Source: Paenibacillus sp. JNUCC-31 (GTDB lineage: Bacteria > Bacillota > Bacilli > Paenibacillales > Paenibacillaceae). Taken from it: DNA of 64,000 nucleotides. The stretch's first letter is position 1, and every line of letters begins with the position of its first letter. The position numbers were made by a program, and so were the translations under genes. The notes beneath the pieces are model-generated. The model had not been told where the DNA came from. It searched no databases and saw only the letters and a list, made by a program, of their open reading frames with translations. Positions 9,146 to 22,064 of the stretch are shown piece after piece. Location: assembly GCF_014844075.1 (NCBI RefSeq), contig NZ_CP062165.1, forward strand, positions 3,844,001-3,908,000, in the 5' to 3' direction.

Positions 9146-9877
9146 TTAGGATGATGCGATGTCTTTGTATTTCAGGCGGCGAATGGACCAGATAGCAAAC
9201 AGAAGAATAAAGAGACTGTTCATCAACAGAAAGACGATATTCTCCGCGGAGGTCAGTCCCTTCTGGCTCAGTACGCCCATGCCTATGGTTAACAGGGAAT
9301 AAGGGAATAACATGCCGATTTTCAGCACATACATGCCCAGTCCGAGAAAGACCGCACAAAGGCTGATGCCAATTGGCGTAGCGAAGCTTCGTATCCGTAT
9401 CGATAACCCCAGTTGCAGTGCGGCAATGGATATAGCGGCGAACCAGCCTCGCAGGCTCCACACCACCGTTTCCATCGGGAATGAGCCCGGTATGGAGAAC
9501 AGTTGGCCTGCTGCCCAGTACATGAGCATGAAGAAGGCTTGGGCCGAGAAGATCAAAATGCCGACAATGACCAACTTGGCGACAAACAGACTGGTGACCG
9601 ACAACGGAGAAGCCAGAATCATATTCCAGTTGCGATTGCTGTGTTCCAGGCGGCATACAAAGGCACAACAGATGGCGATCAGGATGGGAAGGAAGAATTC
9701 TCCATAGAATAAACTGACCTGTGTCCACAGGCTGTACCACCCGTTTTGCAAGGCCGCTTGATTGAAATAAAAGTTAAAGCATCCGATGAGCAGGCTGATG
9801 ATAGGCAGAATGGCCAGTACCAGGCTGATCCGGGAATGCCGAAGTTTAAGCCATTCGGCGGAAATACTCCTCAGCAT
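9146..9877 (-). CDS. lanG: Lantibiotic immunity ABC transporter permease, LanG-type
   Basis: Second membrane subunit of the self-protection exporter. The 243-residue protein has about six hydrophobic segments and the ABC-2/MutG-EpiG layout: AEWLKLRHSRISLVLAILP at the N-terminus, FLPILIAICCAFVCRLEHSNRNWNMILASP in the middle and a basic C-terminus. The LEHSNRNW stretch corresponds to the conserved E-x(3-4)-W motif typical of LanE/LanG proteins. It lies 12 nt after lanE. With lanF and lanE it should remove the lantibiotic from the producer's membrane. LanG versus LanE assignment rests on gene order and is less sure than the function. Confidence 0.85.
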   Translation of the reverse strand: MLRSISAEWLKLRHSRISLVLAILPIISLLIGCFNFYFNQAALQNGWYSLWTQVSLFYGEFFLPILIAICCAFVCRLEHSNRNWNMILASPLSVTSLFVAKLVIVGILIFSAQAFFMLMYWAAGQLFSIPGSFPMETVVWSLRGWFAAISIAALQLGLSIRIRSFATPIGISLCAVFLGLGMYVLKIGMLFPYSLLTIGMGVLSQKGLTSAENIVFLLMNSLFILLFAIWSIRRLKYKDIASS

Positions 9878-9889
9878 GTGGTTCCCTCC

Positions 9890-10639
9890 TCAAATCTCTT
9901 GTCTTGAAGCATGAATATTCCCTGCAAAATAGAAGATGGCAGCCATCAACAAGGCGGCTATGAACAGACCGAAGGGCAGCATACCCGATACATAGGTGCC
10001 TGAAGATGCACTGTAAATGTAAGTGACCGGATTCAGATCCATGTAGTAGGACCAAATGAAGAGGTGACGAATACCTGCAGGGAACAACCCTGAAGTTGTT
10101 CCGATAAATCCGCCCAACATGCCCAGGCATAATGCAAAGGCCTGATTGCGGACCGTAAGAGACAACCATTGTTGGAGTGCCGTTATTGCAAGCGTAGTTA
10201 ACAGTGTCCCTGCAGCGAATTGCACAAGCAGGGAGAATGGCAGCGGTCCGGGAATATTTTTGGATAGACCAAAACCTACAATGAAGACAGCCTGAGCAAG
10301 GATACCGTACAGGATCAGGCTGTTTGCACAGATGTATTTGGCTGTGTAGACATGATTGCGTCCGGTGTTGGTCGTCATTAGCATCTTCCATGTGTTTCCC
10401 TTATGCTCCATGTCACAGATTCGGGATACAACGATAGCCGATATAATCGGCAGAAACAGACCGTTCATGGAAGCAATGCTGAAGATCAGCGCTTCCCAGC
10501 TCGCATTGGCTTCACTTCGGGAGATGGAGATGCTCATGGACATGGAGGCCCAGATCATCTCTGCAGCAAGAAACAGAGTTAGCATGACCCAGATCTTTTT
10601 GCGACGAATTTTGAAATATTCCAGAGATAGAGCTTTCAT
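9890..10639 (-). CDS. lanE: Lantibiotic immunity ABC transporter permease, LanE-type
   Basis: First membrane subunit of the immunity exporter. It has 249 residues, an N-terminal cytoplasmic KIRRKKIWVML segment and about six membrane helices. The conserved region VSRICDMEHKGNTWKMLMTT carries the EHKGNTW motif seen in LanE/MutE proteins. The ATG at 10639 overlaps the TAA of lanF by one base (TAATG), a clear sign of translational coupling. Members of this family pump mature lantibiotic from the membrane to the outside. A bacitracin-type BcrB permease is the main alternative, but the adjacent lanA-lanM-lanT genes favour LanE. Confidence 0.88.
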   Translation of the reverse strand: MKALSLEYFKIRRKKIWVMLTLFLAAEMIWASMSMSISISRSEANASWEALIFSIASMNGLFLPIISAIVVSRICDMEHKGNTWKMLMTTNTGRNHVYTAKYICANSLILYGILAQAVFIVGFGLSKNIPGPLPFSLLVQFAAGTLLTTLAITALQQWLSLTVRNQAFALCLGMLGGFIGTTSGLFPAGIRHLFIWSYYMDLNPVTYIYSASSGTYVSGMLPFGLFIAALLMAAIFYFAGNIHASRQEI

Positions 10640-11556
10640 TACAGACTCCGCTCCTTTCCGGTCAGATCGAGGAAAATATCCTCCAGACTTTTTTTGTGTT
10701 CCTCAATACGGATGACGGGAATATCGTGTTCCACCAGCACTTTGTTCATCCGTGAGACATCCTCGTCACGAAGATAGTCGAACACAAGCTGCTTCCCCTG
10801 TATCTTGGGCATGTAGCCTTGAGTCAAAAGGATTTTCTCTGCCCTTGCCGGGTCTGTGGTCTGAAAACGAATGGTAGCCTTGTTGTTGGCCTGAAGGCTC
10901 TGCATGGTTCCCTGGAACAGCAGCTTACCATCGCTGATAATACCCACTGAAGTAGCAATCTGTTCAATCTCTGACAACAGATGGCTGGAGAGCAGAACTG
11001 TTATGCCATATTGACTTGGAAGGGACTTGATCAATTCCCGGATCTCACCGATACCAGCCGGATCAAGTCCATTTGTAGGCTCATCGAGGATCAGCAAGCT
11101 GGGGAAGGCGAGCAGGGCCATGGCAATACCAAGCCGTTGCTTCATGCCCAGAGAATACTGATCGGCCTGCTTGTGTTTTTGATTTTCGAGCCTTACGATT
11201 TTGAGGGCTTCGTCAATATTTTTAGTTGGTACATTCCGCAGTCGCTGCATGACTTTCATATTCTCGAGTCCAGTCAAGTGGCCGTAATAGGATGGGGATT
11301 CGATCAATGACCCAGTCTGGTTCAGAATGGACGGACGATGTTTATTCAGATCTTTGCCGAACACCTTTACGGTGCCTTCGGTGGGTTTGATCAAACCCAA
11401 CAGCATTTTTAACGTGGTTGTTTTGCCAGCTCCGTTAGGGCCCAGAAACCCAAAAATCTGCCCTGTTTCAACAGCCAGATTAACCTGGTGTACGCGGTTA
11501 GTACCGCCATAAGATTTGGACAGGTTATGAGTTTCCACGATGGGGGAAGTGTTCAT
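10639..11556 (-). CDS. lanF: Lantibiotic immunity ABC transporter ATP-binding protein, LanF-type
   Basis: ATPase of the LanFEG self-immunity exporter. The protein of about 305 residues has Walker A GPNGAGKTTT, signature YSLGMKQRLGIA, Walker B LLILDEPTNGLD and switch VLLSSH. A C-terminal extension (RIEEHKKSLEDIFLDLTG) is typical of the BcrA/LanF group. I start at the ATG at 11556, preceded by GGAGTTGAG. The upstream in-frame ATG at 11574 overlaps that site and has none of its own. It heads the minus-strand operon lanF-lanE-lanG-yxeA and is divergent from lanR-lanK, which probably senses the peptide and turns both units on. Confidence 0.88.
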   Translation of the reverse strand: MNTSPIVETHNLSKSYGGTNRVHQVNLAVETGQIFGFLGPNGAGKTTTLKMLLGLIKPTEGTVKVFGKDLNKHRPSILNQTGSLIESPSYYGHLTGLENMKVMQRLRNVPTKNIDEALKIVRLENQKHKQADQYSLGMKQRLGIAMALLAFPSLLILDEPTNGLDPAGIGEIRELIKSLPSQYGITVLLSSHLLSEIEQIATSVGIISDGKLLFQGTMQSLQANNKATIRFQTTDPARAEKILLTQGYMPKIQGKQLVFDYLRDEDVSRMNKVLVEHDIPVIRIEEHKKSLEDIFLDLTGKERSL

Positions 11557-11632
11557 TATTGATCTCAACTCCATTTCACTAGTGTCTCTGTTGCTCTAAA
11601 TATAGATCAGGCTTCTTGCTCGTGGCTGAAGA

Positions 11633-11712: not shown

Positions 11713-12426
11713 ATGGACTTAATGAAGAATAAGAAAATATTGATCGTTGATGATGAGCCCGAAATCCGGGAAATGATTGAGCGTTTTTTACGTAAAGAGG
11801 GTTTTTTTCGGGTATACACGGCCGATAACTTCGTGAATGCCTTGGCAGTATGCAGGCTTGAAAAGCCGGATGCAGCTATCCTGGACGTGATGCTTCCAGA
11901 CGGGGATGGCTTCTCTCTGCTCTCTTCGATCCGGTCATTCTCGGATATGCCCGTTCTGTTCCTGTCTGCGCGTGGTGAAGATGAGGATCGACTGCTCGGT
12001 CTGGGCCTGGGAGCAGATGATTACATGGTTAAACCCTTTCTTCCGAGAGAGTTGATCCTTCGGCTGATGGCCATTCTGAAACGGGTATATGCCTCTAATA
12101 CGGTGGAGAGGTTGCCTGTATTCCGGTTGGGTGGACAAACCATTGATTTGGAAAGCGCTGTTGTACAGGGGAGAGATAGGGAGCTTCCACTGACAGCCAA
12201 GGAGCACGCCATACTGATCAAGTTGTATGAGAATCAGGGCCGGATCGTAACCAGTGATGCCCTGTGTCAAGCCGTATGGGGAGACGAGAGTTATGGTTAT
12301 GAAAATACACTTATGGTGCATGTTCGGCGAATTCGGGAAAAGATTGAGGAAGACCCATCCAAACCGGTATTTCTGCTAACGGTTCGGGGACTTGGTTATA
12401 AACTGATGGCTCAGGAGTCCAGGTAA
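11713..12426 (+). CDS. lanR: OmpR-family response regulator of the lantibiotic locus
   Basis: DNA-binding half of a two-component system. The 237-residue protein has a receiver domain with acidic pocket IVDDEPE, phosphoacceptor Asp58 (AAILDVMLPDGDG) and the conserved Lys in DDYMVKPF. A C-terminal winged helix follows (LTAKEHAILIKLYENQGRIV ... VHVRRIREKIE ... VRGLGYKL). Its stop overlaps the ATG of the kinase gene (TAATG). It sits between the immunity operon and the biosynthetic genes, so it most likely controls immunity and possibly lanA. Start at 11713 is supported by GGGTGATGTG; the internal ATG at 11722 is possible. Confidence 0.88.
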   Translation: MDLMKNKKILIVDDEPEIREMIERFLRKEGFFRVYTADNFVNALAVCRLEKPDAAILDVMLPDGDGFSLLSSIRSFSDMPVLFLSARGEDEDRLLGLGLGADDYMVKPFLPRELILRLMAILKRVYASNTVERLPVFRLGGQTIDLESAVVQGRDRELPLTAKEHAILIKLYENQGRIVTSDALCQAVWGDESYGYENTLMVHVRRIREKIEEDPSKPVFLLTVRGLGYKLMAQESR

Positions 12427-13808
12427 TGGATGGCGTTGTTCGAATTCTTAGAAGGTTCGTCGGGTCAACCATTCTGGTATCTGTGGTGCTGTTACTATTC
12501 AATCTAATTCTGCTAGGTTCGCTGATCTTCAAGGAAATTCATGAGGGTCCTTCCCCTGGTGCGGTTGTGAAGCAGATGGCCAGTGGCCTGAGCAAGGGAG
12601 AGCAGGGGGACTATGCTCTGGACAGTGATGGAATGCAACTGCTGGATACATATCAGGCTTGGGCGATGCTGCTTGATCCTCAGGGCAAGGTACAGTGGAG
12701 CGAGCGGCTTCCGGCTGAAATCCCGCGCTCATATAACGTGACGGATGTTGCTAAATTCTCTCGGTATTATCTTAAGGAATACCCGGTGTATGTGTGGGAA
12801 CGTGAAGATGGATTATTGGTCGTAGGCTACCCCAAGAATACGTACGGAAAATACCAGTTCGACTTTCTGGCAGAGTGGCTCAAGTCATTGCCTGTTCGGA
12901 TTATATTATTATTGGTGTGTAATGTGGCTCTTGCTCTTCTGGTATCCATATTAATTGGAACGCGGGTGATCCGTAGTATTCGACCGTTGATCCATGGCAT
13001 TCATGCACTGGCAAAGGAAGAACCTGTTCATGTCGAGACCAAGGGTATATTTAATGATCTGTCTCAAAGCATCAATTCAACATCCCGCATGCTTCAGGAC
13101 AAAAATGACGATCTAAAAGCAAGGGATGAAGCGCGATCCAACTGGATTGCAGGCATATCTCATGATATACGGACACCATTGTCAATGATTCTGGGATACG
13201 CGAGTGAATTGGAGGAACAATCGGATTTGACAGCCGAGCAGAAACAGCAGGCAGCCATTATTCGTCGTCAGGGTGAACGTCTGCGATCACTGGTCAGTGA
13301 TCTGAATCTGGTATCCATGCTGGAGTATGAGATGCAGCCCTTACATTTGAAGTCGATTCGACTTTCCGTTCTGGCAAGGCAAGTGGTTTCGGATTTTTTG
13401 AACAATGGCCTGGATGAACGATATCCGATCTCGCTACATGTCCAGGACGAGAGTCTGCATGTGATGGGAGATGAGCGCTTGCTGTATCGTGCAGTAACGA
13501 ATCTGGTACAAAACAGTATTAGGCATAACCCGGATGGGTGTGCAATTGAGCTGGAAACGAAGCGTGCAGCGGAGGATTTATTTTGTGAATTTGTGGTGTC
13601 TGATGATGGAGAAGGGATTCCCAAAGAGTACTTGGACGATGTAGTGGTTCTCCCCTATACCGCAGGGCGTATACGGCCTTCCCGCCAGGGACATGGTTTG
13701 GGACTCCCCATGGTAGCAAGGATTGCGCAGGCCCACCGGGGCAGGCTTGTTCTGGAGAGTGGAAGCGGAGAAGGGCTTAGAGCAGTATTGAAATTACCAG
13801 CAACGTAG
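12426..13808 (+). CDS. lanK: Sensor histidine kinase of the lantibiotic locus
   Basis: Membrane sensor paired with the upstream regulator. The 460-residue protein has two membrane helices (near residues 15-36 and 160-182) flanking an extracytoplasmic domain of about 120 residues. A short HAMP-like stretch follows, then the H-box GISHDIRTPLSMILGYASEL. The N-box is NLVQNSIRHNP, the G1 box VSDDGEGIP and the G2 box GHGLGLPMV. The large extracellular domain differs from the tiny loops of BceS-type kinases and resembles NisK/SpaK-type peptide sensors. The most likely signal is the lantibiotic or cell-wall damage. Ligand and targets are inferred from position. Confidence 0.88.
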   Translation: MDGVVRILRRFVGSTILVSVVLLLFNLILLGSLIFKEIHEGPSPGAVVKQMASGLSKGEQGDYALDSDGMQLLDTYQAWAMLLDPQGKVQWSERLPAEIPRSYNVTDVAKFSRYYLKEYPVYVWEREDGLLVVGYPKNTYGKYQFDFLAEWLKSLPVRIILLLVCNVALALLVSILIGTRVIRSIRPLIHGIHALAKEEPVHVETKGIFNDLSQSINSTSRMLQDKNDDLKARDEARSNWIAGISHDIRTPLSMILGYASELEEQSDLTAEQKQQAAIIRRQGERLRSLVSDLNLVSMLEYEMQPLHLKSIRLSVLARQVVSDFLNNGLDERYPISLHVQDESLHVMGDERLLYRAVTNLVQNSIRHNPDGCAIELETKRAAEDLFCEFVVSDDGEGIPKEYLDDVVVLPYTAGRIRPSRQGHGLGLPMVARIAQAHRGRLVLESGSGEGLRAVLKLPAT

Positions 13809-14084: not shown

Positions 14085-14267
14085 ATGAAACAATTCAATC
14101 TCGAAGCACTGGGAGCAATCGAGGACATCAGTGATGACGAACTTATGGTCATTACAGGGGCGGTATCGGTAATTGATGCCCAAGCTAGCGGTGGTGTATT
14201 CTGTACGGTAAGTCATGAATGCCATTATAATTCGGTTTCACCTTCTTCCTGGCTGACTTGTTGTTAA
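14085..14267 (+). CDS. lanA: Lacticin 481-group class II lantibiotic precursor
   Basis: Ribosomally made precursor of a lanthionine antibiotic, 60 residues. The leader (about residues 1-26) is acidic and ends in DDELMVITGA. This fits the lacticin 481 leader pattern ELxxIxGA, with cleavage after Gly-Ala by the LanT peptidase. The 34-residue core contains CTVSHECHYNS ... TCC. By homology, core Thr15-Cys20, Ser17-Cys33 and Ser24-Cys34 should form the three rings, and Thr32 dehydrobutyrine. Oddities are an extra Cys14, seven rather than five residues between NS and TCC, and a long start with a second Gly-Gly (QASGG). The start at 14085 follows GGAGG by 8 nt; an ATG at 14070 overlaps that site. 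Confidence 0.93.
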   Translation: MKQFNLEALGAIEDISDDELMVITGAVSVIDAQASGGVFCTVSHECHYNSVSPSSWLTCC

Positions 14268-14281
14268 ATTTTGCTCTCATC

Positions 14282-14322
14282 TTCAAGCACATAGCTGATT
14301 TCAGTTATGTGCTTGAATTTTT
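14282..14322 (+). terminator. Attenuating terminator between lanA and lanM
   Basis: TTCAAGCACATA pairs perfectly with TATGTGCTTGAA (12 bp) and is followed by a T-run. In lantibiotic operons such a hairpin keeps precursor mRNA abundant and lets limited read-through make the modification enzyme. Confidence 0.9.
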
Positions 14323-14370
14323 TATGAGGGTTTTGGGCACCAAACATCAATTAGAAGGGGAGATAAAACG

Positions 14371-20067: not shown

Positions 20068-20371
20068 TTATATGTGGAAAAATTGAGAAGTTAAAGTGAT
20101 GCAAAATTCAGGAAAGTGGGTAATGTACACCGGAATGGACTAACGGAATCATTTAGGAACAAAGTTACATAAAAACGATGCCAACAGCCGATGTGTCCAT
20201 GGTAGTTTTATACTATGATGCAGATAACAGAAGAAAAAGTGGACAACTGATGAAGCCAGGTCGCATAAGCTAGATCATGATGACATCAGTGGGAGCGTTT
20301 GGCGTTTGGGGAAGTGGGACGAGAAGATCGATTAGGGTTATTAATGAATCGAAAAAGAAAAGGTGATTGAT

Positions 20372-20731
20372 ATGAGGTTGAAGCGACAATTCGCATGTAT
20401 GCTTTTTTTGACCATACTATCCACTTTCATTTTGGGAGGGTGTCAGAATATGAAGGAAAGTGAAAAACAGGCCTATTTTAAAGAAGCGGAAGCGGAGGCT
20501 GTAAAATATCTGAAGAATAAATACGAATTGGATGTAGTCATCACGAATAAAGAGTTGTTACCCGAGATGGCGCTTGACTCTATTGCCATGGAAGGACATG
20601 TGGTAGATCATGAAAAGCAGGAATTTACGATTTCGTACGATTATGAGGATAAAAAAATCAAAAACTTTGGCATGAGTCCAGCAATAAAGGAAGCTATTAT
20701 AGCAAAGGGATATGATCCGTTTAACAAATAA
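20372..20731 (+). CDS. Small lipoprotein, candidate immunity protein for the downstream lipase
   Basis: Surface-anchored lipoprotein of 119 residues with lipobox ILGGC and a mature domain of about 95 residues. The domain has an alpha helix (EAEAEAVKYLKNKYELDVVI) followed by beta-strand-rich sequence (VVDHEKQEFTISYDYEDKK), a cystatin-like outline. I do not recognise a named family with certainty; DUF1433/DUF4467-type lipoproteins are the closest I recall. It lies 40 nt ahead of the lipase gene. In the staphylococcal TslA system a lipoprotein of similar build gives immunity to a secreted lipase, so that role is proposed here by analogy. The ATG at 20372 follows AAAGGTG; a GTG at 20363 lies inside that site. 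Confidence 0.75.
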   Translation: MRLKRQFACMLFLTILSTFILGGCQNMKESEKQAYFKEAEAEAVKYLKNKYELDVVITNKELLPEMALDSIAMEGHVVDHEKQEFTISYDYEDKKIKNFGMSPAIKEAIIAKGYDPFNK

Positions 20732-20771
20732 ATCATAATTCAGGATTGATTTTCTTGGAGGTGCAGCGGTT

Positions 20772-22064
20772 GTGAGCGAATCACCAAAAATTGATGATGA
20801 AACATACAACAAGATGTCAGAATTAGCTTATGAGAACCTGAAATCAGGTGTTGAGTTCGAGGACCTTCCCGGATGGCAGGTTCTTGAGGATACTCATGGA
20901 AACAAAAAATCCGGTTTTGATGCGGTGACCTTCTATAATCCTGAGACCAAACAGGCGGTTATCGCTTATCGGGGCACAGAGGGAAGTGCATCGTTGGATC
21001 GCAGCGCCCCTGACTATTATGCGGACGCTCAAATCGGCTTGCCTGAGCTTGGCAGAAAGATCGAACAAAGTACTGACCTTACGCCAGATTGGTTGGCTAA
21101 TGGAATTCAGAAGGTAAGAGATGTGACCGGGATTACCAAAGTCGAGAATGTTGTAGGAGATCTGGATAAAAAGCTGGATAAGACATTTGGACTGGGCCCC
21201 AACCAAATGTATGAAGCGGAAGACTACGCCAAAGATATGCAAAAAAAGTACAAGGATTTGGATTTTTCGCTGACAGGACATTCGCTTGGAGGGGGGAATG
21301 CCCAATATGCAGCTGCATACACGGGACTTACCGCGGTGACGTTCAGTGCGCCATCCGTGATTTCCAGTCTCACGCCAGAAGCGAAACGAAAGGCCGAAGA
21401 GGGTGGGTTTGATAGCCAAATCATCAACTACGGACATCCCGGAGATTTTGTAACCAGCGGATTTTTTGGTGGATATGATCGACACGTCGGTTCCATGTAT
21501 TACATCAATTCCAACTACAAGGATATGAATGATGACATGAGCATGATGGATAAAATCAGTAACACCTTTGGCGGTAAAGAGTACCACAGTCTGAAACAGT
21601 ACAAGTTCGAGAATGGCTATATTTCCAACGATCTATATGATCCGGTTACAGGCGAGAAAATCAGTTATTCACCACGTGAGCCGTCCAATGTCCTGTCTGA
21701 TCTTGCAGCATTTATGCGGAACCTGGGTGGGCAAGCAGGTAACCTTGCAAGAAGCATCGCCGCAGCAGCAGGAGCGTCTGGTCTGATTCAAGTAACGCCG
21801 GAAGAACTGAAAAGTGTCGCTGCCCGGTGGAAGCAAAATGCTCAACAGTGCAATGCAGAGTTGAATACGGTAAGGAGTCGGATGGCCCAATACCTGCATT
21901 CCAGCCGTAGTCGCAGACTTGAGCCTATCGTCACTCATTTGGATGCATCTATTAACGAATTAAGCACATGGCACTTGAAACACACCAGCCAGTTCCTGGA
22001 CTTCATCGATGCAAAAGCGGATGCCTTCAGACAGGCGGATGAGAGTCCGGTCCATTTTAATTAA
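20772..22064 (+). CDS. Lipase with C-terminal WXG-like helical domain (putative type VII effector)
   Basis: 430-residue alpha/beta-hydrolase. The lipase_3-type core has AVIAYRGTEG (oxyanion strand) and the nucleophile elbow TGHSLGGGNAQ with Ser171. Asp225 (HPGDFVTSG) and His272 (EYHSLKQ) are the likely rest of the triad. No signal peptide is present. After a Gly/Ala-rich linker near residue 325, the C-terminal 95 residues are helical and begin IQVTPEELKSVAARW, like a WXG100 protein. This catalytic-first, targeting-last order matches the reverse-arrangement type VII lipase TslA. The start is a GTG with GGAGGTG 8 nt upstream. A housekeeping intracellular lipase is the alternative. Confidence 0.8.
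   Translation: MSESPKIDDETYNKMSELAYENLKSGVEFEDLPGWQVLEDTHGNKKSGFDAVTFYNPETKQAVIAYRGTEGSASLDRSAPDYYADAQIGLPELGRKIEQSTDLTPDWLANGIQKVRDVTGITKVENVVGDLDKKLDKTFGLGPNQMYEAEDYAKDMQKKYKDLDFSLTGHSLGGGNAQYAAAYTGLTAVTFSAPSVISSLTPEAKRKAEEGGFDSQIINYGHPGDFVTSGFFGGYDRHVGSMYYINSNYKDMNDDMSMMDKISNTFGGKEYHSLKQYKFENGYISNDLYDPVTGEKISYSPREPSNVLSDLAAFMRNLGGQAGNLARSIAAAAGASGLIQVTPEELKSVAARWKQNAQQCNAELNTVRSRMAQYLHSSRSRRLEPIVTHLDASINELSTWHLKHTSQFLDFIDAKADAFRQADESPVHFN

Follow-up and report, generated by a model that had tools for sequence, protein, structure and literature searches.

A Paenibacillus class II lantibiotic cluster with a predicted additional N-terminal ring and a predicted two-step leader

The lanA gene of the window (the whole stretch of 64,000 nucleotides of Paenibacillus sp. 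JNUCC-31 DNA that was analysed) and the genes around it are best explained, and in our judgement likely so, as a cluster for a four-ring class II lantibiotic that resembles estercin A, loses its leader in two steps and targets lipid II. The product is probably a lacticin-481-type lantibiotic that has gained the N-terminal ring of the mersacidin group. If so, the spacer between leader and core would shift the LanT cleavage site clear of a ring that begins at residue 1, class II peptides with a ring at their very N-terminus may in general need such a spacer, and the two-step leader of mersacidin would be a recurring solution. The family carries both signatures of two lipid II-binding lantibiotic subgroups, the mersacidin-like and the lacticin 481-like, which are told apart by the very cysteine discussed below (PMC3918158). 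Because both signatures are present, and because of the branching order of the LanM enzymes, natural relatives can be used to test what the additional ring does to leader processing, stability and the binding of lipid II, with estercin A, which lacks the extra ring, and the window peptide, which is predicted to have it, as a comparison pair.

The lanA gene and its neighbours

Translation of the window gives a precursor of 60 residues, MKQFNLEALGAIEDISDDELMVITGAVSVIDAQASGGVFCTVSHECHYNSVSPSSWLTCC, with its coding part at 14085-14264 and its stop codon at 14265-14267; a GGAGG lies upstream of the ATG at 14085, its end 8 bases away. The precursor scores 40.9 bits with the broad lacticin 481 model PF04604 (cut-off 21.7). 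The gene is real and not a chance reading frame, since 17 further family members conserve the peptide and the core is unchanged relative to same-genus loci. The lanM and lanT genes lie directly 3′ of lanA. The initial annotation was right to report, in a Paenibacillus-type genome, a lacticin-481-like lantibiotic of unusual make-up. The translation likewise contains the ring motif TVSHEC that it described, with a cysteine immediately before the ring threonine, and seven residues between NS and TCC where lacticin 481 and nukacin have five. A LanM beside a Ser/Thr/Cys-rich precursor, a leader ending in GA and a C39 peptidase in LanT place the system in class II (Table 1). The CNG and CHG motifs visible in LanM presumably have a role in zinc binding.

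Table 1. Features of the lanA region, in window coordinates
Feature	Position	Strand	Remarks
LanE/G-like permease	9146..9877	-	PF12730; TIGR03732 38.5 bits, below cut-off
LanE/G-like permease	9890..10639	-	PF12730; TIGR03733 30.4 bits, below cut-off
LanF-like ABC ATPase	10639..11574	-	TIGR03740 262.9 bits, below cut-off 309.75; 7/8 loci
Response regulator	11713..12426	+	Homolog in 8/8 loci
Sensor histidine kinase	12426..13808	+	Homolog in 8/8 loci
lanA, precursor peptide, 60 aa	14085..14267	+	PF04604 match; 17 further family members
Leader (26 aa) with the Gly-Ala LanT site at its end	14085..14162	+	
Spacer VSVIDAQA, variable, from GA to core; predicted second part of the leader	14163..14186	+	Unconserved in family
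Conserved 26-residue core	14187..14264	+	Predicted rings Ser1-Cys6, Thr7-Cys12, Ser9-Cys25, Ser16-Cys26
Codon of extra Cys (Cys40 of precursor, Cys6 of core)	14202..14204	+	
Hairpin with U-tract between lanA and lanM	14282..14317	+	Terminator scan, folding
lanM, bifunctional class II synthetase, 1136 aa	14371..17781	+	TIGR03897 863 bits, PF13575, PF05147
lanT, exporter with N-terminal C39 peptidase, 738 aa	17774..19990	+	PF03412, PF00664, PF00005

Homologs of LanA, LanM and LanT, like those of the two-component system, are found in all eight family loci, and the three ABC genes in seven, the exception being L007, where they are absent within the stretch examined. Gene order varies to some extent, with the ABC genes after LanT in L006, and the response regulator and kinase after LanT and on the opposite strand in L007. 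We infer a self-protection role for the LanF-like ATPase, such that the divergent ABC transporter would protect the producer, while the two-component system would control expression. In L001 (Paenibacillus sp. OVF10) the response regulator and kinase matches are spread over several frames, and LanM has a short open frame of 831 aa, which we attribute to assembly errors or decay.

Folding of 14265-14330, which contains the hairpin between lanA and lanM, gives -28.8 kcal/mol (z -8.1), and none of 200 shuffled sequences was equally stable; the hairpin is likely a partial terminator that would yield more lanA than lanM transcript. The open reading frames downstream at 20363-22064, a 122-aa frame without a family and an SA1320/lipase-3-like protein with a weak WXG100 match, were considered as cluster genes and rejected: homologs are present in six of the eight loci, but they lie upstream of the cluster in L002, are duplicated in L005, and none was found in L006 or L007.

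Distribution of lanA relatives

A single-sequence protein search returned 10 relatives, and a profile search, drawing on 8000 scored candidates, gave 23 matches at E up to 0.1, 17 of them with a cysteine before the ring residue and six without. Among the named sources of these proteins are Paenibacillus dendritiformis, P. lentus, Bacillus cereus and Salibacterium salarium. Genome contigs extend the list to P. xylanexedens, P. amylolyticus, P. polysaccharolyticus and further Paenibacillus, for the eight loci in total. Within the window's genus, lanA is present in 9 of 75 genomes. In a phylum-wide sample four of 398 genomes match at E up to 0.01, the window's own genome being the one strong match and the other three weak and partial (E 0.0017-0.0094). 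The search of viral contigs returned no relatives. We note also that two same-genus precursors ending in CGNFCTFTTECPFLSFCC (L053:858-1085 and L055:723-950) belong to a different class II type.

Leader, spacer and core

Alignment of the 18 family members and their relatives shows that conservation starts at Ser35 of the precursor, with an 18-member consensus of S-[GAS]-G-V/I-x-C-T/S-x-S/T-x-E-C-x-Y-N-S-x-S-P-x-x-W-x-T-C-C. The 34-residue core of the initial annotation, and with it the numbering of the cysteine as Cys14, is therefore probably wrong, and we rejected it as the conserved product on account of its variable first segment. Judged by conservation, the product is most likely one of 26 residues, SGGVFCTVSHECHYNSVSPSSWLTCC, a correction that matters for anyone expressing the peptide.

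No part of the precursor is less conserved than the segment between GA and Ser1, which consists of 5-9 unconserved residues in the 16 full-length members. The contrast with the core is apparent at the nucleotide level: between the window and seven same-genus loci (L001-L005, L008 and L016) the core has a pN of 0 at a pS of 0.17-0.59, that is, no amino-acid change with synonymous change at 17-59% of synonymous sites, whereas the spacer pN is 0.43-0.46 in five of the seven (L002-L005 and L016), 0.11 against L008 and 0 against L001. Core pN is 0.08-0.10 against the more distant L006, L007 and L038. In P0144 and P0145, the nearest relatives without the extra cysteine, there is no spacer, and GA is followed by six residues and then the ring threonine. 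One protein entry of 26 aa, P0143, is exactly SGGVFCTISHECHYNSVSPSSWMTCC; it starts at SGG and coincides with the predicted mature peptide, but is probably a contig-edge fragment.

As here, mersacidin (GA-GDMEAA) and thermolanthin have a few residues that separate the LanT site from the first modified position. According to PMC9127955, MrsT cuts mersacidin after GA and the remaining GDMEAA is removed by AprE; the acidic residues of GDMEAA are required for full modification, MrsT fails to cut where Asp or the core Cys comes immediately next, and many other class II leaders with the same LanT site are processed in one step. A heptapeptide separates the double-Gly site from the first modified position in thermolanthin and its relatives, for which a two-step leader has been proposed (PMC13060208), and mersacidin is thus not alone in its leader layout. 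An acidic residue is also found in 15 of the 16 full-length spacers of the present family, with the exception of P0010. Unlike that of mersacidin, the spacer here varies in sequence as well as in length, and the second cleavage is a prediction only.

We predict that LanT cleaves after Gly-Ala, that the exported peptide still carries VSVIDAQA, and that an extracellular protease, either an AprE-like subtilisin or an aminopeptidase halted by the N-terminal ring, then strips the spacer. Removal of the spacer by such a second cleavage seems to us moderately likely. It is unlikely, by comparison, that the same four rings are combined with a single cleavage after GA, leaving a 34-mer with a linear VSVIDAQA tail as the final product in the manner of plantaricin C. 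That peptide does retain a six-residue tail (KKTKKN) before its serine, and one-step processing of many class II leaders with this LanT site (PMC9127955) would agree with it. The aspartate immediately after GA in P0139 and P0141, a position before which MrsT does not cut, counts against the mersacidin-like two-step model. The low conservation of the spacer argues against a retained tail, as does the similar GEMNAAAK spacer of a Priestia peptide with the sequence SGGNVC. The residues before Ser1 (A in seven, D in four, K in two, N in two and E in one of the 16 full-length precursors) bear on the question in both directions: because they vary, they do not single out one specific second protease, and the spacer might remain as an N-terminal tail comparable to KKTKKN, yet 13 of the 16 fall in the AprE set listed by the estercin paper. 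In favour of a single cleavage, a scan of ten proteins around lanA revealed no second protease. The window's own genome has eight subtilisin-type family matches, two of them in one open frame, and none could be linked to this pathway. With six dehydrations the calculated masses are 2681.071 Da for the 26-mer and about 3464.48 Da for the 34-mer, with [M+3H]3+ ions at 894.698 and 1155.835; for estercin A the calculation yields 918.0629, identical to the published calculated ion (PMC11877530).

The extra cysteine and a probable fourth ring

All 18 members with a cysteine before the ring threonine or serine have a serine five residues before that cysteine, and none of ten compared relatives without the cysteine (P0144-P0149, nukacin P0136, P0134, lacticin 481 and estercin A) has a serine at that position. 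There is no upstream cysteine in any of the 18, and Ser1 is the sole invariant serine or threonine between the GA site and Cys6, which together indicate Ser1 as the partner of Cys6. The 18 sequences are related, and so this co-occurrence does not represent 18 independent events. We nevertheless regard as quite likely, from the pattern of conserved residues, a lanthionine between Ser1 and Cys6 that forms a fourth ring of the size seen in plantaricin C and actagardine. LanM would accordingly dehydrate serines and threonines in the last 26 residues and close four thioether rings, namely the six-residue Ser1-Cys6 ring, new in the lineage, and three interlocked rings (Thr7-Cys12, Ser9-Cys25 and Ser16-Cys26), with dehydrated residues beside them at Dha18 and probably Dhb24.

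The same six-residue Ser-to-Cys spacing is found in plantaricin C (SSGDIC), estercin B (SSGAIC) and a Priestia plasmid peptide (SGGNVC), all three with a Ser-x4-Cys-Thr unit. Plantaricin C has bridges 7-12 and 13-18. The equivalent ring of actagardine also has six residues (PMC2706954). The Priestia peptide, encoded on plasmid pPmC-142-5 of Priestia megaterium (L031:5080-5328), has a mersacidin-like leader and a GEMNAAAK spacer followed by SGGNVCTYSVEC..., its leader end thus reading GA-GEMNAAAK-SGGNVC, and it is a probable further Ser-x4-Cys ring peptide.

The initial annotation had left the extra cysteine free, in a fourth ring or linking two molecules; co-conservation of Ser1 favours the ring and disfavours the other two. 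We consider it improbable that the peptide has just the three estercin A rings and a cysteine that is free or in a disulfide, perhaps one that joins two molecules. In most members a Gly comes after Ser1, a poor context for dehydration, since Gly beside Ser hampers LctM in vitro (cited in PMC2706954), and other peptide types do place a second cysteine near this one. The strict co-occurrence of Ser1 and Cys6, the lack of an upstream cysteine in all 18 members, and the scan of ten proteins around lanA, in which no thiol-oxidase-type domain was seen, all speak against such a thiol.

As a control we compared 27 distinct non-family cores picked up from loci L024-L090 only, 21 of which have a cysteine before the ring residue. 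A serine five residues before this cysteine is present in four of the 21 (plantaricin C, the Priestia peptide and two CGxxC types) and in none of the six cores without the cysteine, so that serine at this place is no general companion of a cysteine before the ring. An overlapping set of eight, two of which also have the serine, has a cysteine four residues before, one of its members neighbouring TlpA- and VKOR-like genes, and in the other 11 Asn stands there; the partner of this cysteine thus differs between peptide types. Since the control concerns other peptide types, it left our odds for the present family unchanged. Cores of the form CGW[T/S]CTITDDCPNSVFVCC, with a cysteine before the ring threonine, are found at L029:5640-5771 and L027:5501-5632; we take them to be salivaricin A-like. 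They probably pair this cysteine with another cysteine, and the TlpA- and VKOR-like genes that follow LanT in L029 suggest a disulfide there.

Estercin A as a template

Estercin A of Clostridium estertheticum (PMC11877530, PMC8792950) aligns with the 26-residue core without gaps and is identical at 17 of 26 positions. Its core is GGGVITTFTHECYYNSVSPASWGGCCK (PMC8792950). As described in PMC11877530, NMR assigns rings 7-12, 9-25 and 16-26, a Dha at 18 and an unmodified Ser21; the text calls residue 9 both Thr and Ser. Our assignment of the three corresponding rings is by homology with this structure, and the ring-register positions 7, 9, 12, 16, 18, 25 and 26 coincide in the two peptides, which also have in common the NS-V-S-P loop with Trp22 and the GA leader end. 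The long C-terminal loop is therefore not unique: estercin A has the same spacing, and seven residues before TCC can no longer serve as the distinguishing trait that the initial annotation made of it. Estercin A differs in having Gly1 and Thr6, and hence no N-terminal ring, in having no spacer after GA, in Gly-Gly instead of x-Thr before CC, and in an extra C-terminal Lys.

Relationship to known lantibiotic groups

The peptide belongs cleanly to neither of the two nearest families, since it falls below the cut-offs of both specific models: 35.0 bits against 46 for NF040664 (lacticin 481) and 17.8 against 29 for NF000539 (plantaricin C), with which its relatives P0006 and P0008 score 23.5 and 19.4 bits. 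Membership in the lacticin 481 group consequently stands in the broad sense of PF04604 and not in that of the strict NCBI model. With lacticin 481 and nukacin ISK-1 the peptide has in common T-x-S-x-E/D-C, NS, TCC and the GA leader end, but it differs in the extra cysteine, Ser1, the spacer, and 11 instead of nine residues between HEC and TCC, nine being the spacing of the NF040664 type. The absence of a cysteine before the first ring threonine, given as a lacticin 481 trait in PMC3918158, does not apply here, as Cys40 is present. With plantaricin C, actagardine and mersacidin it has in common the cysteine directly before T-x-S/T-x-E-C, and with plantaricin C also the serine five residues before that cysteine; the mersacidin-group motif with a Ser/Thr partner is present in sequence as S35...C40-T41-V-S-H-E-C46. 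It departs from the plantaricin C group in a C-terminal half of lacticin 481/estercin type and in a LanM that lies elsewhere in the trees.

We searched open-access texts for the core and did not find it in those covered; an earlier description elsewhere, as in figures, supplements or subscription papers, is possible. Among the matches listed, the only lantibiotic paper is the one on the mining of estercin A.

The LanM lineage

LctM, NukM and the plantaricin C LanM share 22-25% identity with the window LanM, which in a quick tree of 77 rows (14 loci omitted by choice as duplicates or short or interrupted frames, with L061 being neither) is placed apart from the LctM/NukM clade. On these grounds we rejected the idea that it is closely related to the enzymes of lacticin 481 and nukacin. 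Identity to the C. estertheticum LanM is 40%.

A focused tree of 31 rows, comprising 30 from earlier matches and the window LanM, gives the order in finer steps; both trees are midpoint-rooted for drawing only, and the pairing of LanM rows with precursors, made by matching contigs and their lengths, is presumptive. Outermost are the putative lacticin-481-type pairs P0034/P0144 (both from B. cereus VD107) and P0040/P0147 (fork 95/94), followed by a pair that includes the C. estertheticum LanM (100/100), on a branch adjoining P0029 and this family, then by P0029 (100/100) and by 12 rows that include the window (99/98). This last clade holds every row paired with a Cys precursor (P0020, P0022, P0024, P0026, P0027, P0028 and, nearly, P0025), while P0016, P0018, P0021 and P0023 are LanM rows without a precursor pairing. 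The C. estertheticum LanM, P0031, is presumably EstM; a phylum search with it, for its precursor, returned only the window's own genome.

Provided that the root is placed correctly, the most parsimonious sequence of events would be that the longer C-terminal loop came first, followed by Ser1, Cys6 and the spacer. We give an even chance to the more specific proposal that the three-ring lacticin-481/estercin type acquired the whole mersacidin/plantaricin-type N-terminal module (Ser1, Cys6 and spacer) independently and as a unit, in one LanM lineage.

Predicted target

The retained motif and the behaviour of estercin A make lipid II very probably the target. The glutamate of the lipid II motif is kept in 18 of 18 members, and the mature 26-mer would bind lipid II via the CTxSxEC ring and block cell-wall synthesis. 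Estercin A binds lipid II in a competition assay and forms no pores, and its G24T variant loses activity (PMC11877530). Because Thr24 is found in all 18 members of the present family, activity cannot be transferred blindly from estercin A. That the product is a signalling or otherwise non-antibacterial lanthipeptide is very improbable: a two-component system adjoins lanA, but the conserved glutamate, the LanFEG-like homologs in seven of eight loci and the binding of lipid II by the closest studied relative all point to a lantibiotic.

Elsewhere in the window's own genome (7.55 Mb) two other places match the LanC-like family. A second LanM-like gene is located outside the window at G000:C1:3950547-3953336, about 92 kb from the window LanM, and about 4.4 kb beyond it there is a subtilisin-family match (3957745).
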